IMG/VR virus record: IMGVR_UViG_3300047476_000226
Location: 1-24,529 of that record
Strand: one strand, 5' to 3'
DNA: 24,529 nt
From: a virus
Position 1 is the first letter of the stretch, and every line of letters starts with the position of its first letter. This document shows positions 4,258 through 11,202 of this stretch, piece after piece. The position numbers and the translations under genes are program-made. The notes beneath the pieces are model-generated. The model had not been told where the DNA came from. It did not search any database and saw nothing but the letters and a program-made list of their open reading frames with translations.

Positions 4258-4911
4258 ATGAAAACATTTATACATCATGATTTTGCGAAACTAGAAAGGG
4301 ATACAGCTGCTGATGGTCGTCGAGTTTATAAGACACCAGAAGGTAAGCTGTATCCTTCAGTCACTTCTATTACAGGAGTGAATAGCACATTTGATAGAGT
4401 TGCTTGGGAAAGACGTGTTGGCGTTGATGAAGCAAATCATATCACTCAACGTGCACTTAATCGAGGTACTCGCGTTCACTCTCTTTGTGAGAACTTTCTT
4501 CTTGGTAATGAAATTGTTGTAGATATGTTTGATCAAGATATGTGGAGCACTATGCGACCGCTACTTGATAAAATTGATAACATACATTGTCTTGAAACAC
4601 CATTATATTCTGACTTCCTTCAGGCTGCTGGCACAGTTGACTGTATTGCAGAATACGAGGGTAAGTTATCTGTTATAGATTTTAAAACTTCTTCAAGAGT
4701 AAAAGAACGCAACGATATCCATAATTACTTTGAACAGACTGCAGCTTATGCGGTTATGTTTGAAGAACGTACAGGTATTCCAATCGGTCGTCTGGTTATC
4801 TTAATGGTAATTGATGATGATGCACCCAGAGTGTTTATTGAAAAGCGCGATGGTTGGATTGCAGGATTCCGTAAGTCGCGTATGGACTACAGAAATAAAT
4901 ACGGCATATAA
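4258..4911 (+). CDS. PD-(D/E)XK nuclease, RecB/Cas4-type exonuclease
   Basis: 217-residue predicted nuclease of the PD-(D/E)XK superfamily (RecB/Cas4-like). The diagnostic core is AAGTVDCIAEYEGKLSVIDFKTS (about residues 121-143). The Asp of TVD and the D-x-K of IDFKTS are the metal-binding catalytic residues. A helix before the core carries RGTRVHSLCENFL, the His-containing motif I of RecB-like nucleases, and the QTAAYAVMFEERTG helix after the core matches motif Q-x(2)-x-Y. It likely acts on DNA ends in recombination, repair or host DNA turnover. It sits directly after phoH with a 2-base gap, and its stop overlaps a late promoter. Confidence 0.8.
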   Translation: MKTFIHHDFAKLERDTAADGRRVYKTPEGKLYPSVTSITGVNSTFDRVAWERRVGVDEANHITQRALNRGTRVHSLCENFLLGNEIVVDMFDQDMWSTMRPLLDKIDNIHCLETPLYSDFLQAAGTVDCIAEYEGKLSVIDFKTSSRVKERNDIHNYFEQTAAYAVMFEERTGIPIGRLVILMVIDDDAPRVFIEKRDGWIAGFRKSRMDYRNKYGI

Positions 4912-4940: not shown

Positions 4941-6395
4941 ATGATTTTTGAAATTCATGCGCAGAGAGAAAACGACCCTACTGATAAGAAGGTTTTTTAT
5001 TATGACAATATGAAAAACATTCTTAAAGACGATCAGGGTAAGGTGATTGAGTATTCTGATATTCAACAAAACCCAAACAAGAAAGAGTTCATTAACTTCA
5101 ACAAGGATATTCCTTTAAAGAAGTCAAGAGCAATCAATCATCTGAAAATTCAGCTTGGTCTTTCTTGCAACTACTCTTGCGATTATTGCTCACAACGTTT
5201 TGTCGAACGCGCACCTGAAACGTCAAAGAAAGACATTGATGCTTTTATGACTAAGCTAGATGTTTTAGACTTTAATGAAGCAGATGGTCTTCATGTAGAG
5301 TTTTGGGGTGGTGAACCATTGGTGTATTGGAAAACTCTGCGTCCTCTGGCAGAAGCCATTCGTGAAAGATTTAAAACCTGGGAAAAGAAGCCATTCTTTT
5401 CAATCATTACAAATGGTTCTATTTTAACTGATGAAATGATTGATTGGTTAATGATGATGAACTTTCAGGTAAGCATCTCTCATGATGGTCCTGGTCAATC
5501 TGTTCGTGGTCCAGACCCATTTGACGATCCTGAAGTAAAGAAACGTATTCTTGGTTTCTATCGTATGATGACACGTTTGAAGAAACCTTTTAGTTTCAAT
5601 GCTATGTTGAATAAAAAGAACACATCTCGTAAAGCAATCTATGATTGGTTTGTAAACCTTACTGGAGACCCAGATGTTATGCTTGGTGAAGGTTCTATCG
5701 TTGATGCATACGAAGAAGACGGTATTGGTAATTCACTAACTACTAAACAAGAACACTTTGAGTTTCGTCGACAAGCCTTTGGTGAAATCTATTCAACTGA
5801 TGGCCAGATTGGTTTTAAAGGTATCATCTTTAAAATGGGTGACTTTGCACAAAGAGTTCTTTCTCACGAAGAATCAATCTATCTTGGACAGAAATGCGGC
5901 ATGGATGATGAGCGTACTATTGCGGTAGACTTGCGTGGTAATGTTATCACTTGCCAGAACGTTTCTGCTGCTGAAGTTTCCAAGAATGGTGAATCTCATC
6001 TTGGTGGTAACCTTGACAACTATGACGATGTTCAGTTTACTTCTTCTACTCACTGGTCTAACCGCAAAGAGTGCCCCGAGTGTCCTGTTCTACATCTATG
6101 TAAGGGTGCTTGTATGTTCTTAGACGAAAAGTTTTGGGATATTAGCTGCGCAAATTCCTATTCAGATAACGTTGCTTTGTTTGCTCTGACATTTGTTAAA
6201 TTGACTAATGGATATATTCCTTCTTTAATCAAGAGCGATACTCTTGCTCTAGATCGCCAGGATATCTGGGGAACTATCTATGAACATAAAGAACAACCTA
6301 CGAAAAAGGTAATTCCAATCAAGATCGTTGCTGAAAAAGTCGGTCAGATTGACGATGTTGTAGTTTATGGTAAATCTAGAATCGAGTCAGTATAA
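4941..6395 (+). CDS. Radical SAM/SPASM domain maturase
   Basis: 484-residue radical S-adenosylmethionine enzyme. The [4Fe-4S]-SAM motif CNYSCDYC is at residues 76-83 (Cys 76, 80, 83). The GGEP SAM-binding motif is at 123-126. The C-terminal third has a classic SPASM arrangement: C319, then G333-x4-C338, then C378-x2-C381-x5-C387-x3-C391, then C403, enough for two auxiliary clusters. SPASM proteins typically modify ribosomally made peptides or proteins (thioether, C-C or epimerised residues) or act as enzyme maturases. A late promoter lies at 4907, and a Cys/Asn-repeat protein follows 25 bases downstream under its own late promoter. That neighbour is the obvious candidate substrate. The enzyme class is certain; substrate and reaction are inferred. 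Confidence 0.92.
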   Translation: MIFEIHAQRENDPTDKKVFYYDNMKNILKDDQGKVIEYSDIQQNPNKKEFINFNKDIPLKKSRAINHLKIQLGLSCNYSCDYCSQRFVERAPETSKKDIDAFMTKLDVLDFNEADGLHVEFWGGEPLVYWKTLRPLAEAIRERFKTWEKKPFFSIITNGSILTDEMIDWLMMMNFQVSISHDGPGQSVRGPDPFDDPEVKKRILGFYRMMTRLKKPFSFNAMLNKKNTSRKAIYDWFVNLTGDPDVMLGEGSIVDAYEEDGIGNSLTTKQEHFEFRRQAFGEIYSTDGQIGFKGIIFKMGDFAQRVLSHEESIYLGQKCGMDDERTIAVDLRGNVITCQNVSAAEVSKNGESHLGGNLDNYDDVQFTSSTHWSNRKECPECPVLHLCKGACMFLDEKFWDISCANSYSDNVALFALTFVKLTNGYIPSLIKSDTLALDRQDIWGTIYEHKEQPTKKVIPIKIVAEKVGQIDDVVVYGKSRIESV

Positions 6396-6398
6396 ATA
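6391..6398 (+). promoter_or_regulatory. T4-type late promoter TATAAATA
   Basis: Exact octamer overlapping the radical SAM stop codon, 22 bases before the Asn-Cys protein start. Its geometry is nearly identical to the copy at 4907. It suggests strong late, possibly structural-protein-level, expression of the 6420 gene. Confidence 0.75.
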
Positions 6399-6419
6399 AT
6401 TAGAAATGGGTAACCAAAC

Positions 6420-7301
6420 ATGACTCTACCACAATCTCCGAACTCTATTGCAGTATCTCAAGTTAACTCAGAACTTGAGATATCGTCTACCACTCAGTCA
6501 GACTTAAACTGGCTAAACGGATATATCAAATCCAATATCAGACCAGCCTCGCCAAATATGCAATCTTTCTACGGATTGGCATATTTTAACAGAACTGTTG
6601 ATGGTAACTGTAATAATGCAAATGCTGGAAACTGTAATTGCAATTGTGGTAATATTCAATGTACAGCTAATGCTAACTGCGAAAATATTAACTGTGTAAA
6701 CTGCGAAAGCACTAGAACTCTACAGGCTAACTGTAACTGCGCCTGCACTTATAACTGTAATTCTAACCAGAACTGCTTCTCATACAACTGTAACTGTTCT
6801 AAGATTATCTGTACTAAACTATTTGAATTAGGAATGTTAGATAGAGATGTTTATCTAGCCGATCAAGAGTTTGGCCAGTGGCTTGTAGAGAATCACCCTG
6901 ATGTATATCATGGTTATATTGCTTGGGCGCAGATTGTTGTTGATTGGATTGAAGAGCGTGGTCCATATATTAACTTCTGGGTTAAAGATAAAACCGAACA
7001 AAAGAAGAAACTTTCAGCTTGGGCTACTCGTTGGGCAAAAGAGATTGCTACACCTTGGGCTGAGTGGATGGCTCATAAAATGGGTATCAAACCAAAGACA
7101 AATTATACTGGGTTTGTATTAATGTCTATTGGTGCACCAATTAGTAAGGTAGTTGGCTTTGTACAAAGAAAACTAGGCAAGACAAATAAGCCAGCTGGAA
7201 TTATTACTGGCTTAGCACTAGTTGGTATTTTTGCTTTACTGCTTGGTGTTGTTAAAGTTGGTAAGTTATTCGAACAAAAAGGATTAGAATATGTCAGATA
7301 A
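6420..7301 (+). CDS. Asn/Cys-repeat protein, candidate modified virion protein
   Basis: 293 residues in three parts. Residues 1-60 (LPQSPNSIAVSQVNSELEIS...) resemble the N-terminal module of many marine phage structural proteins (pattern LPSSG-ISLSQVN-ELG). Residues 61-131 contain 16 Cys and about 21 Asn; 13 of the 16 Cys follow an Asn, including NCNCNC, NCNC and a second NCNC. Residues 132-293 are a Trp-rich, mostly helical domain ending with a likely transmembrane helix (about 258-280, GLALVGIFALLLGVV). The gene sits behind its own late promoter and directly after a radical SAM/SPASM enzyme, so it is a candidate substrate for thioether or other backbone modification. Alternatives are a metallothionein-like metal binder or a disulfide-bonded tail or lysis protein. 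Its function is not known. Confidence 0.75.
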   Translation: MTLPQSPNSIAVSQVNSELEISSTTQSDLNWLNGYIKSNIRPASPNMQSFYGLAYFNRTVDGNCNNANAGNCNCNCGNIQCTANANCENINCVNCESTRTLQANCNCACTYNCNSNQNCFSYNCNCSKIICTKLFELGMLDRDVYLADQEFGQWLVENHPDVYHGYIAWAQIVVDWIEERGPYINFWVKDKTEQKKKLSAWATRWAKEIATPWAEWMAHKMGIKPKTNYTGFVLMSIGAPISKVVGFVQRKLGKTNKPAGIITGLALVGIFALLLGVVKVGKLFEQKGLEYVR

Positions 7302-7785: not shown

Positions 7786-8502
7786 ATGAATAATACAAGC
7801 AATCAAGAAGACAGACAAAGATATCACTGGTATCAGAACGCACAAAACTTATTTTGGAAAAGTCCAATTTGGGAAGTTGATCTGGGTTATGACTCAGAAT
7901 GGAACGCAGCTTTACTAGAAGAAATCTATGACATTGGTCGTAATATTACTCTTGGTATTGACAAATCTCCAAGTAATAGTATTTGGGACTATGCCTACAA
8001 GTATCCGCATCTTCAAGAAATTAAAGACAAGATTATTGAAGTTGTAACTACGACTATTACAAAAGAAATCCCTGAAATTAGAATGTTAAACATCAAAGGG
8101 TGTGAACATTTTATGGGTTGGATTAATGTTCGCGAGCCAGGAGAATCTCTAGAGGTTCATGGTCATACTGAGTCAGCTATTGCTGCAACATATTATGTCA
8201 AAGCGCAAGATGGTTGCGGCGATCTAGTTTGTTTTGATACAGGTGGCGCGATTGATTTTGAAAATAACAGATTAACAGGTTCACCGTATATTCGAGAACG
8301 CCGATATAAACCAGTTGAAGGACGTTTGATTTTCTTTCCTAATTATGTTCTTCATGGCGTCGATGTAAACAAATCTAATGACTTAAGAATATCATTGACT
8401 ACTGATATTCGTAAAGTTGTTGACCCAAATGCCTCTAATACAGTTATTCTTAAAACTTGGGCAGGAAGAATGTCTAAGATTAAAGATTGGAAACCTGAAT
8501 AA
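7786..8502 (+). CDS. 2OG-Fe(II) oxygenase-like protein
   Basis: 238 residues resembling the putative 2OG-Fe(II) oxygenase family seen in many T4-like marine phages. The core includes GWINVREPGESLEVHGHTES (about 111-130, candidate iron ligand H125 or H127), AATYYVKA, and a distal LIFFPNYVLHGVDVN...RISL segment with H190 as second iron His and R201 as likely 2-oxoglutarate-binding Arg. These enzymes hydroxylate proteins or small molecules using O2, 2-oxoglutarate and Fe(II). It is the first gene of a four-gene overlapping set, and its stop overlaps the next start (TAATG). The substrate is unknown. Proximity to the radical SAM/Asn-Cys module makes protein hydroxylation an attractive inference. 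Confidence 0.75.
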   Translation: MNNTSNQEDRQRYHWYQNAQNLFWKSPIWEVDLGYDSEWNAALLEEIYDIGRNITLGIDKSPSNSIWDYAYKYPHLQEIKDKIIEVVTTTITKEIPEIRMLNIKGCEHFMGWINVREPGESLEVHGHTESAIAATYYVKAQDGCGDLVCFDTGGAIDFENNRLTGSPYIRERRYKPVEGRLIFFPNYVLHGVDVNKSNDLRISLTTDIRKVVDPNASNTVILKTWAGRMSKIKDWKPE

Positions 8503-9038
8503 TGTTTTGTAAGGTTAACTATAACTTTGATAAACCGCTGTATGTAGTTACAGAAGGTCTTAAACGTTTTACTGGTGAAAATGGTTATGGTATTGATTAT
8601 AAAAAGATATGGAGTCCAGATGAATCTAAACTCTTATCAATCATACCAGAAAGATATTGGCAAGACTTTCATTTAACAGTAATGTCAATTAACAGAGATA
8701 TTCCACCACACACTGATACAGGAATTGTAACAACAATTAATTTTTATTTGGATGTTGGTGGTGAAGATATTGATACTGTATTTTATGAAACCATTGTAGA
8801 TAAACCAAAAACCTTTCAAATAGAAAATCAAATAGATGGATTTATATTTGATAAGACTCAGATACGCGAAACTGCTAGGTTTCGCGCAAAGGCTATGGAG
8901 TGTTGGGTTCTAGATGTAAAGAATATACACAGCGTTGAAGGTAATTTAACCAGAGATCGAAAAGCAATAACTCTTGGAACTTGTTTACACAAATATAATG
9001 ATGTTATTGATATGTTTAAGGAAACAAGATGTTTGTAA
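8502..9038 (+). CDS. 2OG-Fe(II) oxygenase-like protein, paralogue A
   Basis: 178 residues with a double-stranded beta-helix signature. The proximal HxD is in IPPHTDTGIVTTINFYL (H70, D72). The distal His and Arg are in WVLDVKNIHSVEGNLTRDRKAITLGT (H143; R151 or R153). The protein is clearly paralogous to the next gene, sharing KPL-x(3)-EGL, KKxWSPD, IPxRYW and TTINFY blocks at the same positions. It is shorter than typical oxygenases, with only the catalytic core. It overlaps its neighbours by 1 and 10 bases, indicating translational coupling. Oxygenase chemistry is inferred from the retained H-D-H-R set; the substrate is unknown. Confidence 0.68.
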   Translation: MFCKVNYNFDKPLYVVTEGLKRFTGENGYGIDYKKIWSPDESKLLSIIPERYWQDFHLTVMSINRDIPPHTDTGIVTTINFYLDVGGEDIDTVFYETIVDKPKTFQIENQIDGFIFDKTQIRETARFRAKAMECWVLDVKNIHSVEGNLTRDRKAITLGTCLHKYNDVIDMFKETRCL

Positions 9039-9559
9039 AACTTAAAAACAATTTTACCAAACCTTTATTTACAACTGTTGAAGGGCTTACCTCTTTTGCA
9101 GGTATTGATGGTAAAGGAGTTGGACATAAAAAAGTTTGGTCTCCAGATTCTGAAGATTTTTATTCAGTGATACCAAAAAGATACTGGGCTGACTTTGATT
9201 TTAGTTTAATGACAATCAATTCTAGAATTTACCCGCATGTTGATAGAGATTATATTACTACAATTAATTTCTATATTCAAACTGGTGGAGATTATATAAC
9301 TTCGTTTTATTCAGATGGAGATCTTGCAGATATAAGTGACTCTGTAGATTATTGTAATGGTGTTTATAAAGAATCTAGCTTAACAGAGGTTGGTTTTTTT
9401 GTAGCTAAAGACTATGAAGCATGGCTACTTGATGTATCTAAAATACATACAGTTCATAATACATTTGGAACTGAAAGAAAAGCCTTGACTTTAAGAACTA
9501 AGCGTTACACATATATAGAAGTGTATGATATGTTAAAGGAAACTGATAATGTGGTATGA
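9029..9559 (+). CDS. 2OG-Fe(II) oxygenase-like protein, paralogue B
   Basis: 176 residues, a tandem paralogue of the preceding gene. The proximal motif is IYPHVDRDYITTINFYI (H70, D72). The distal part is WLLDVSKIHTVHNTFGTERKALTLRT (H140, R150). The spacing between motifs is almost the same as in paralogue A, while loop sequences differ widely. This suggests an old duplication with substrate divergence. It starts inside the upstream gene (overlap 10 bases) and ends 11 bases inside the next one. The putative catalytic residues are all present, so both copies are probably active. Confidence 0.68.
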   Translation: MFVKLKNNFTKPLFTTVEGLTSFAGIDGKGVGHKKVWSPDSEDFYSVIPKRYWADFDFSLMTINSRIYPHVDRDYITTINFYIQTGGDYITSFYSDGDLADISDSVDYCNGVYKESSLTEVGFFVAKDYEAWLLDVSKIHTVHNTFGTERKALTLRTKRYTYIEVYDMLKETDNVV

Positions 9560-10337
9560 GAGACTAGATGTTCAATTTGATATTGAAAAATTACGCAGCG
9601 CTGTACGTGAACACGTATTCACTCTTGGTGATCAAGTAATTCAGGGTGAAGAATATGAAACACCACAATACAATGGCTTTGGTGGTTGGTCTTTATTAAG
9701 TCGTAGTGCTGACTGGAGAGATGGCTGGGAAGCAATTCAAATGGAAGGTGGAACCTCATTAGAACAAATGCTACCAACGCCAGAGTTAATATATAAAGCC
9801 CATAAGCATTTTGGTATTGCGCATAGTCTAGAACATGATAAACCAACACAAGCATACGTTGGATATATCAAAGAAGTTCTTGACACTCTAAAGGATATGG
9901 GTTTAACACCTCGCCGTGCAAGAATCACTTGTTTAAAAGCAGGTTCTAAATCTCTTGTACATAAAGATGCTGATACAACTGAGTATATGGCACGTTTACA
10001 TATCCCTCTTTGGACTAATGAAAAATGTGTTCATATCTGCGAGGGTGATAGCTTGCATATGAAAGCCAATGGTAGTGCATATATTATATGGACTAACCTT
10101 TGGCACCAGATTCGTAATGACTCAGATGAAGATCGTTATCATTTGATTATGGATGTTTATGATACTAAAAAGATTACTGACAATTTTAAATATGAAGGTA
10201 ACTTTGAAGAGTTGGAAAACTTTGTTCGTGGTTCAAGAGAGCAGATTGAAGCAGTTGATCTAACTGAAGATGACAAACAATTCTTTGATGCACTTAAACA
10301 ACGGTATGTTACAAAAACCTTGACTTACAATAAATAA
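9549..10337 (+). CDS. Aspartyl/asparaginyl hydroxylase-like oxygenase
   Basis: 262 residues resembling the aspartyl/asparaginyl beta-hydroxylase-type 2OG-Fe(II) family. The block around residues 124-204 has ARITCLKAGSKSLVHKDAD (iron ligands H138 and D140), YMARLHIPLWTN (R149), a small turn with GSAYIIWTNLWHQIRN (distal H186) and EDRYHLIMDVYD (R196, 2-oxoglutarate or backbone contact). An N-terminal extension of about 120 residues may provide substrate specificity. It is the last gene of the oxygenase set. The -35 of the tmRNA promoter lies within its final codons. An asparagine hydroxylase-like enzyme near an Asn-rich late protein is suggestive but unproven. Confidence 0.75.
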   Translation: MWYERLDVQFDIEKLRSAVREHVFTLGDQVIQGEEYETPQYNGFGGWSLLSRSADWRDGWEAIQMEGGTSLEQMLPTPELIYKAHKHFGIAHSLEHDKPTQAYVGYIKEVLDTLKDMGLTPRRARITCLKAGSKSLVHKDADTTEYMARLHIPLWTNEKCVHICEGDSLHMKANGSAYIIWTNLWHQIRNDSDEDRYHLIMDVYDTKKITDNFKYEGNFEELENFVRGSREQIEAVDLTEDDKQFFDALKQRYVTKTLTYNK

Positions 10338-10348
10338 TCAGGTATAAT
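10320..10348 (+). promoter_or_regulatory. Sigma70-type promoter of the tmRNA gene
   Basis: TTGACT (10320-10325) and TATAAT (10343-10348) with a 17-base spacer. The predicted start is about 10354-10356, just before the acceptor piece of the permuted tmRNA. This explains independent, probably early and strong, transcription by host polymerase. Confidence 0.8.
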
Positions 10349-10419
10349 ATAGTTTATTGCTGTATGAAGCGGATAGAAAAGTGTTCTGGACGGGAGTTCG
10401 ATTCTCCCCACCTCCACCA

Positions 10420-10491
10420 AAAGCATACAGGTTAGATGGCCATCTAATAAACGGCAAAGACCGAACAGAAATGTTCCTGTATGCTTTTGAT
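10420..10491 (+). other. Intervening segment of permuted tmRNA, highly structured
   Basis: The 72 bases between the encoded CCA and the 5' G of the coding piece. A 12-bp helix pairs AAAGCATACAGG (10420-10431) with CCTGTATGCTTT (10476-10487), extending the tmRNA acceptor stem. Inside it three hairpins abut with few unpaired bases: TTAGAT-GGCC-ATCTAA (10432-10447), CGG-CAAAGA-CCG (10452-10463), and AACA-GAAA-TGTT (10464-10475, GNRA-type loop). It is presumably excised by host tRNA-processing enzymes (RNase P at 10491/10492 and a 3' nuclease after the CCA). Confidence 0.8.
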
Positions 10492-10598
10492 GGGGGTGAC
10501 TAGGTTTCGACAGGGCAACAAGTAAACAAGTGGACAGCACGGGAATGCTAAACCCGTAGGATTGGGGTAACTCGGTCGAAGAAGCAAAAGAAGTAAAT

Positions 10599-10631
10599 GC
10601 AAACGACTCTGTCTTCGCATTAGCAGCCTAA
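10599..10631 (+). CDS. tmRNA proteolysis-tag reading frame (ANDSVFALAA)
   Basis: The resume codon is GCA at 10599. The frame reads Ala-Asn-Asp-Ser-Val-Phe-Ala-Leu-Ala-Ala and ends at TAA (10629-10631). With the alanine charged on the tmRNA, the full tag would be A-ANDSVFALAA. It matches the common AND...ALAA pattern. The C-terminal LAA is the ClpX recognition element known from E. coli. It is not an independently initiated gene: there is no start codon and translation enters by trans-translation. Confidence 0.88.
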   Translation, partial: ANDSVFALAA

Positions 10632-10648
10632 ACGCTGCTTAGGGTTTC

Positions 10649-10685
10649 GGTGGTTTTCCTCGTAACAGAATAAGCCACCATTTTT
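10649..10685 (+). terminator. Candidate tmRNA terminator
   Basis: GGTGGTTT pairs with AAGCCACC (one G-U) around a 15-base loop, and ATTTTT follows. It could be the rho-independent terminator and 3' boundary of the coding piece, or it could be retained as a terminal stem of the RNA. Confidence 0.55.
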
Positions 10686-10695
10686 AAGGATCTAT

Positions 10696-11202
10696 ATGAT
10701 TGGTGTTATTCTTGGAAATGGTCCAAGTAAAAGTGCATACGATAGAACTGGTGACTTTGTTCTGGGGTGTAATATTCCAGGAGATCAGTTCAGTGTTGAT
10801 GCAACTGTTATATGTGATGAAGAGATAGTCTGGGTTCTTAAAAATGACTTGACTTTAGTACAAGTGCCAGTTATAATATCTACTAAGGTCTATGAAAAGA
10901 TGAAAGAGTTGGGTATTGTAAACAACTTTATTATTCATCATGTTTTCAAACCCAAAGATTGGCATAATGCGGCTCACTATGCAGCAGACTTTTTGATTGA
11001 AAATCGTTGTGATGAAATTCATCTTTGGGGATGTGATTCTATTTTTGAAAACACTGTTGTATCTTCAACTGCAGAATACACAAACCAGAATACAGTTGGT
11101 GATGACCGATTTGTAAAAAACTGGCGTCGAGTTTGGCACGACAAAATGAAAATTGGTAATGAAGATGATGTGCATTTTGTAGTTTACAGGATGACTAAAT
11201 AA
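10696..11202 (+). CDS. GNGPS-motif protein (MptE/DUF115-like fold candidate)
   Basis: 168 residues beginning MIGVILGNGPSKSAYD. The VxGNGPS loop after the first strand is typical of nucleotide- or nucleotide-sugar-binding Rossmann-like proteins, including MptE/DUF115 and some sialyltransferase-like families. A central AHYAADFLIENRCDEIHLWGCDSIFE segment carries a C-terminal strand and WGCD turn. The catalytic role is not assignable. AAGGA precedes the ATG. It is the first gene after the tmRNA. An internal TTGACT-17-TATAAT sequence lies in codons 52-61. Confidence 0.55.
   Translation: MIGVILGNGPSKSAYDRTGDFVLGCNIPGDQFSVDATVICDEEIVWVLKNDLTLVQVPVIISTKVYEKMKELGIVNNFIIHHVFKPKDWHNAAHYAADFLIENRCDEIHLWGCDSIFENTVVSSTAEYTNQNTVGDDRFVKNWRRVWHDKMKIGNEDDVHFVVYRMTK
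10849..10877 (+). promoter_or_regulatory. Sigma70-type promoter inside a coding region
   Basis: TTGACT (10849-10854), a 17-base spacer and TATAAT (10872-10877), in sense orientation inside the 10696 gene. It matches the other promoters exactly in both hexamers and spacing. It could produce a long leader for the 11260-12870 genes. Confidence 0.5.
11195..11201 (+). promoter_or_regulatory. Candidate late-type promoter CTAAATA
   Basis: CTAAATA overlaps the stop codon of the 10696 gene. The expected start, 5-7 bases downstream, coincides with the beginning of the pseudoknot at 11207. The evidence is motif and position only. Confidence 0.35.

Follow-up and report, generated by a model that had tools for sequence, protein, structure and literature searches.

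The window, by which we mean the whole 24,529-nt stretch of DNA that was analysed, contains a complete circularly permuted tmRNA gene at positions 10320–10680. The reading that we prefer, to which we assign a probability of about 0.85, is that the gene specifies an intact beta-like tmRNA which matures into two pieces, and that the spacer between the pieces is an exchangeable module which often carries a gene, the copy in the window being non-coding. The gene structure, the covariation of a helix that closes the spacer, the exchange of spacers between phages and the coding signal in related spacers are shown by analysis of nucleotide sequence. The window gene itself is a member of an already known class, the permuted tmRNAs; novelty lies in the phage variant, whose spacer is exchangeable and carries genes.

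The tmRNA gene and its phage

The original prediction described a phage-encoded circularly permuted tmRNA, which is confirmed. ARAGORN calls a permuted tmRNA (tmRNA*) at 10327–10722 with the tag ANDSVFALAA*. The Rfam search for permuted tmRNAs that the prediction had proposed gives two matches above the curated cut-offs: RF04321 (tmRNA_permuted) at 10358–10631 with 124.4 bits (E 2.8e-24; cut-off 47 bits), and RF01850 (beta_tmRNA) at 10306–10693 with 100.7 bits (E 7e-30; cut-off 84 bits), which is the best match of its clan. The predicted coordinates, the 72-base spacer and the acceptor strands that join the two halves agree with the sequence, in which the G3-U70 pair and the intact tag are likewise seen. 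As in RF04321, the acceptor piece comes first, the acceptor strands are complementary and include G3-U70, and a T loop and an encoded CCA are present; the tag frame has a hydrophobic degron end and a stop codon (ANDSVFALAA, TAA). A promoter-like site, the spacer-closing helix and a 3' hairpin were absent from the prediction and are added here. The features are as follows.

10320–10348, + strand: sigma-70-like promoter, TTGACT-17 nt-TATAAT (11 of 12 consensus positions; overlaps the end of the upstream gene)
10358–10419, + strand: acceptor RNA piece, the tRNA-like 3' half (RF04321 and RF01850 alignments, sequence)
10358–10363, + strand: P2 strand of the acceptor piece
10392–10408, + strand: T arm (read from sequence)
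10409–10415, + strand: acceptor 3' strand, CACCTCC (read from sequence)
10416–10419, + strand: A73 and encoded CCA, ACCA (read from sequence)
10420–10491, + strand: intervening spacer, 72 nt, non-coding
10420–10431, + strand: 5' arm of the spacer-closing helix, AAAGCATACAGG (12 bp with 10476–10487)
10476–10487, + strand: 3' arm of the spacer-closing helix, CCTGTATGCTTT
10488–10491, + strand: conserved TGAT before the mature 5' end (opposite ACCA; its TGA is the nested-ORF stop in many relatives)
10492–10680, + strand: coding RNA piece (ARAGORN, Rfam, sequence)
10492–10498, + strand: acceptor 5' strand, GGGGGTG with G3-U70, followed by the TTTCGAC region
10534–10539, + strand: P2 strand of the coding piece
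10599–10628, + strand: resume codon and tag ANDSVFALAA (ARAGORN, sequence)
10629–10631, + strand: tag stop TAA (tag frame with stop, 10599–10631)
10649–10679, + strand: 3' hairpin (pairing kept through compensatory changes in relatives)
10696–11202, + strand: downstream phage gene, an ORF that begins 16 nt past the 3' hairpin

Chance alone should produce promoter-like matches in the region; the TTGAC...TATAAT block is also found upstream of the tmRNA in three relatives (L349, L352 and L354). The 3' hairpin was rejected as a classical terminator, as it is absent from the terminator scan and relatives lack a T run. Among relatives, acceptor pair 5-68 changes from G-C to A-U (GGGGATG/CATCTCC) with G3-U70 unchanged. 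A decaying or captured remnant of a host tmRNA, without function, is a highly improbable explanation of the locus. The beta-model score of the window is indeed lower than that of a sister phage (L347, 146.8 bits), and no SmpB gene was found within the 24.5-kb fragment. However, every tmRNA element is intact in the window, the changes among relatives in pair 5-68 and in the 3' hairpin are compensatory, relatives conserve the promoter block, and the gene lies within a supported phage clade of permuted tmRNAs. Since the fragment encodes no SmpB, use of the host SmpB is assumed.

In a midpoint-rooted tree of tmRNAs, built from short sequences and containing several long branches, the window is placed with phage sequences, first joining L068, L031 and L060 (support 98/87) and then L382 (90/85); 21 bacterial rows form a clade of their own (97/96). 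Under this midpoint root, the window does not group within the bacterial beta-type genes; the sampled bacterial beta-type permuted tmRNAs appear as one clade among diverse phage sequences. The tree placement proposed in the prediction thus puts the tmRNA in a phage clade, apart from a separate Rhodocyclales clade. The tag had also been taken as a hint to the source of the gene, which is only partly borne out. Its AND...ALAA form accords with the beta-type model, but the tmRNA belongs to the phage clade and the tag names no host, because the pattern ANDSVFALAA plus TAA has no match among ~85,000 prokaryote species (other stops and AGY serine codons lie outside the pattern). In one bacterial order, only 9 of 200 genomes score above the permuted-tmRNA cut-off.

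The 24.5-kb virus record contains T4-type genes, including PhoH, the gp32 ssDNA-binding protein, tail tube and the gp59 helicase loader. Its gp32 is closest to those of Methylophilales phage Melnitz (54% identical) and Pelagibacter phage HTVC008M; judged by its genes, the window phage is T4-like and related to both. The neighbourhood of the tmRNA also resembles that of Melnitz (PhoH, PDDEXK nuclease, tmRNA, gp59, gp32), with the putative PDDEXK nuclease at 4258–4911 assigned by position. Relatives of the downstream gene share 66–80% identity, and a permuted tmRNA adjoins it in L347, L354 and L360. Elsewhere in the window, the gene of a radical SAM protein (4941–6395) stands before one whose product has a long stretch rich in Asn and Cys (NCNCNC..., 6420–7301); together (4941–7301) they could form a system for making a modified peptide in this T4-like phage. 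Several consecutive genes 5' of the tmRNA (7786–10337) give the impression, from their sequences, of putative 2-oxoglutarate/Fe oxygenase relatives; the last of the run has no PHROG match. A COG2908 RNA match at 367–400 was discarded, scoring 20.7, far below the cut-off of 58.7.

The closing helix and the exchange of spacers

The 72-nt spacer of the window is predicted to adopt a multibranched fold (−22.9 kcal/mol, z −4.5), and its 12-bp closing helix stops exactly 4 bases (UGAU) ahead of the acceptor. Folded jointly, the acceptor strands and the spacer form one hairpin of −41.7 kcal/mol, in the order of acceptor stem, A73-U, C-A mismatch and closing helix. The size and four-way fold of the spacer suggested a tRNA, which is called by neither ARAGORN nor Rfam, and an ATG after AGG gives only M-A-I-stop.

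The closing helix covaries strongly, and in the window register only, across a non-redundant set of ~117 phage spacers, each 50 nt or longer, among the matches listed. Helix positions 3–9 form standard pairs in 94–97% of these spacers (again among the matches listed), with many pair types. The mean pairing over 14 positions is 0.82, compared with 0.53 (maximum 0.57) when the arms are shuffled, and pairing is at chance in registers moved by one base. Several scans accepted only spacers within a set length range, with TGAT and with canonical acceptor strands; their counts are biased by this selection and are not frequencies. In a scan without such selection, 45 of 58 unique spacers have TGAT just before the acceptor, and a helix of at least 8 bp in the window register is present in 42 of the 58, both among the matches listed.

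A similar helix, often of 9–11 bp with a very small loop, occurs in the 5–43 nt spacers of bacterial beta-type genes, mainly of Rhodocyclales, and may already be described there in the 2004 paper on the third two-piece lineage. The helix is thus common to both, and the enlarged loop is the phage feature; given the tiny loops in bacteria, the ancestral element is probably the helix rather than the loop. As TGAT is also conserved in non-coding spacers, that of the window included, it probably serves primarily in processing and only secondarily as a stop codon. Five permuted tmRNAs (L005, L021, L023, L092 and L099) have neither closing helix nor TGAT, and part of a similar peptide, WYYTENEWSR..., seems to be encoded by the spacers of all but L021; in this group, coding sequence and tmRNA may be arranged in another way.

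Comparison between phages shows, from sequence identity, that the spacers behave as cassettes which are swapped independently of the tmRNA flanks. In five pairs (L049/L075, L286/L300, L033/L054, L060/L336 and L396/L412), the spacers are 94–100% identical, while the flanks are only 59–78% identical. Conversely, the window flanks are 84–93% identical to those of L382 and L060, whose ORF-bearing spacers are unrelated to that of the window. Because both arms of the closing helix lie within the spacer, the spacer is a self-contained module, and a swap therefore brings the complete closing helix along.

The interiors of several unrelated non-coding spacers fold well or recur, as exemplified by the z-score of the window spacer and by the L033/L054/L296/L356 family, and a glutamine riboswitch has been assigned to the 3' domain of the tmRNA gene in Melnitz (PMC9004378). 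Both observations would suit a spacer RNA that works as a trans-acting small regulatory RNA, or that senses tmRNA maturation. We consider this quite unlikely, as the window spacer matches no Rfam family other than tmRNA and has no close relative, the best among the matches listed sharing 61% identity.

Small protein genes within the spacers

Many phage spacers hold a small ORF of 22–74 codons, which often ends on the UGA of UGAU and, in long spacers, mostly begins within about 10–20 nt of the 5' end. The expected counts were derived from shuffles that preserve both helix arms. Among the matches listed, an ORF spans 21 of 22 spacers of 161–300 nt (0.96 expected), 11 of 16 spacers of 130–160 nt (3.2 expected) and 27 of 43 spacers of 100–129 nt (15.3 expected), whereas those shorter than 100 nt show no excess (7 of 19; 8.1 expected). 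A strict test, which combines a Shine-Dalgarno sequence, a start near the arm and a spanning ORF, is passed by 7 of 58 unique spacers among the matches listed in the scan unselected for length or TGAT. Substitutions in 11 ORF families (one pair each) are distributed 63/36/91 by codon position, with a pN/pS of 0.36; in one family, diverged members have a pN/pS of 0.07–0.17 relative to one another, and in another all five changes are synonymous. One nested ORF of 63 residues matches Pfam DUF6356 (43.3 bits, cut-off 24.4, E 4e-11), and another approaches DUF2061 (21.9, below the cut-off of 23.1). On the strength of the ORF statistics and the selection, many relatives' spacers carry a small protein gene. 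ORF-bearing spacers occur in both beta-type (L116, L396 and L347) and alpha-type tmRNAs (L364, L461, L458, L449 and L457).

In Melnitz, the spacer ORF MFKWLSKTRLVVITRDYFRERNRKADAKIPKYLSGTRSVYDGGELGSTG... (peptide MFKWLSKTRLVV...) is located within the annotated SsrA of all four isolates, is preceded at its start by GGAG and is unannotated. In one of these records (MZ577097.1, 45984–46703; L465), locus tags 87 and 88 are missing after SsrA, with 86 followed by 89, which looks as if features overlapping the tmRNA were deleted from the annotation. The nested peptides have no convincing homologue in phage isolates beyond Melnitz, and those compared with PHROG have no convincing match there. The nested ORFs of two different phages (L378 and L364) share a CTLC..RWMGN motif in small basic proteins; the latter has no match in phage isolates. 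The cysteines of one nested ORF gave the impression of a bacterioferritin-associated ferredoxin, which Pfam does not support. A good share of the nested small proteins likely contain a membrane segment.

Close to the window, the sister phage L347 has a downstream gene that is 80% identical and directly follows the tmRNA. Its locus is arranged as in the window, with a 92-nt spacer that contains a 26-codon ORF stopping at TGAT; this ORF alone is suggestive only, because its length class shows no ORF excess. L060 and L382, close tmRNA relatives of the window, have ORFs from the well-supported length classes. Compared with these gene-carrying spacers, the window spacer has the closing helix and TGAT and lacks a spanning ORF.

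For the window's own spacer taken alone, the simplest reading is ordinary filler that processing would remove, in which only the closing helix would matter and the ORFs of relatives would be chance or unused. Most short spacers are non-coding, as is that of the window, and the bacterial helices with their tiny loops are also consistent with this reading. As an account of the spacers in general it is nevertheless unlikely, since spanning ORFs in long spacers far exceed the shuffles, third codon positions are biased, one product matches a Pfam family, and the nested ORF recurs in independently isolated Melnitz strains.

Proposed maturation and comparison with known systems

We infer transcription, cutting, charging and translation for the preferred reading, that of an intact two-piece tmRNA with a modular spacer, as follows. 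One transcript would start from the promoter at 10320–10348 and fold into a nearly continuous hairpin of the 7-bp acceptor stem, ACCA opposite UGAU and the 12-bp closing helix. From established tmRNA biology, host RNase P would cut at 10491/10492, before G1, and host 3' processing after the CCA at 10419 would release the spacer. The two RNA pieces would remain paired and receive alanine, and the charged tmRNA with host SmpB would release stalled ribosomes and add ANDSVFALAA, leading to proteolysis.

More weakly, the helix or the cutting may control translation of the nested ORFs. In many cases, the Shine-Dalgarno sequence lies inside the closing helix and the stop codon lies in UGAU at the predicted cleavage point, so that cutting would free a mini-mRNA ending one base past the stop; translation of such ORFs would be complete one base short of the cleavage site. 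Where the ORF extends into the acceptor (as in L052, L241 and Melnitz), it could be completed only on uncut RNA, and cutting would leave a non-stop message, itself a target for tagging by the same tmRNA. That the phage spacer is a dedicated, exchangeable slot for small genes, with expression tied to tmRNA maturation, is a tentative proposal which we hold at somewhat short of even odds. If it is true, a spacer thought to be discarded is coding space, and there is a testable link between ribosome rescue and how other phage genes are expressed. Many small phage proteins would be unannotated because they lie inside tmRNA genes. As a one-piece tmRNA has no such slot, the spacer may be part of the reason that the permuted form is retained in phages. 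The feature is already present in an isolate with a cultured host, Melnitz on Methylophilales H5P1.

The phage permuted tmRNA as such is not new. The original prediction knew only one-piece phage tmRNAs, a view contradicted by the two-piece tmRNA of Melnitz published in 2022, by the 53 two-piece tmRNAs, 50 of them aquatic, found in a set of 18,146 phage genomes (PMC9004378), and by at least dozens in viral contigs; one pattern scan of such contigs gave at least 120 stretches, and permuted tmRNAs make up about half of those. Further isolates with a permuted tmRNA unannotated in their records are Achromobacter phage JWDelta (L444, ~1470–1854), Alcaligenes phage vB_Af_QDWS595 (L445, ~1439–1786) and Pelagibacter phage HTVC008M (L469, ~6121–6462). 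The whole window tmRNA has no blastn match among phage isolates, while a short acceptor-piece query gives a few. In Synechococcus phage S-CAM3 (L443, 1461–1601), the annotation of a 'hypothetical protein' (T040910_205) covers a permuted tmRNA of the cyanobacterial type. No report of protein genes in permuted tmRNA spacers was found in the open-access literature. The accessible text of the 2025 tmRNA database paper singles out as unique a single case of a tRNA lying in an intervening sequence, and does not mention protein genes in such sequences (PMC11915505).

The window gene shares its piece order, G3-U70 acceptor stem, T arm, tag frame and 3' hairpin with RF04321 and RF01850. It differs from the sampled bacterial beta-type genes in having a spacer of 72 nt, compared with 5–43 nt, and flanks that lie outside the bacterial clade. 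With Melnitz (MZ577095-98) it has in common the permuted tmRNA, the closing helix, TGAT and the PhoH/PDDEXK/gp59/gp32 neighbourhood. In contrast to the beta-like tmRNA and non-coding spacer of the window, Melnitz has a tmRNA published as alphaproteobacterial-like (PMC9004378), a 14-residue tag and a spacer with an unannotated ORF. JWDelta, vB_Af_QDWS595 and HTVC008M have the permuted layout and closing helix as in the window; no nested gene was seen in the spacers of the latter two. Known cases of genes within tmRNA genes are the group I intron form with homing endonucleases and one permuted gene with a tRNA in its intervening sequence (PMC11915505). Common to these and to the phage form is a removable segment of the tmRNA gene that carries another gene. 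Whereas the described cases are self-splicing introns or a single tRNA, the phage form uses the permutation spacer, has small proteins as its cargo and recurs across many phages.
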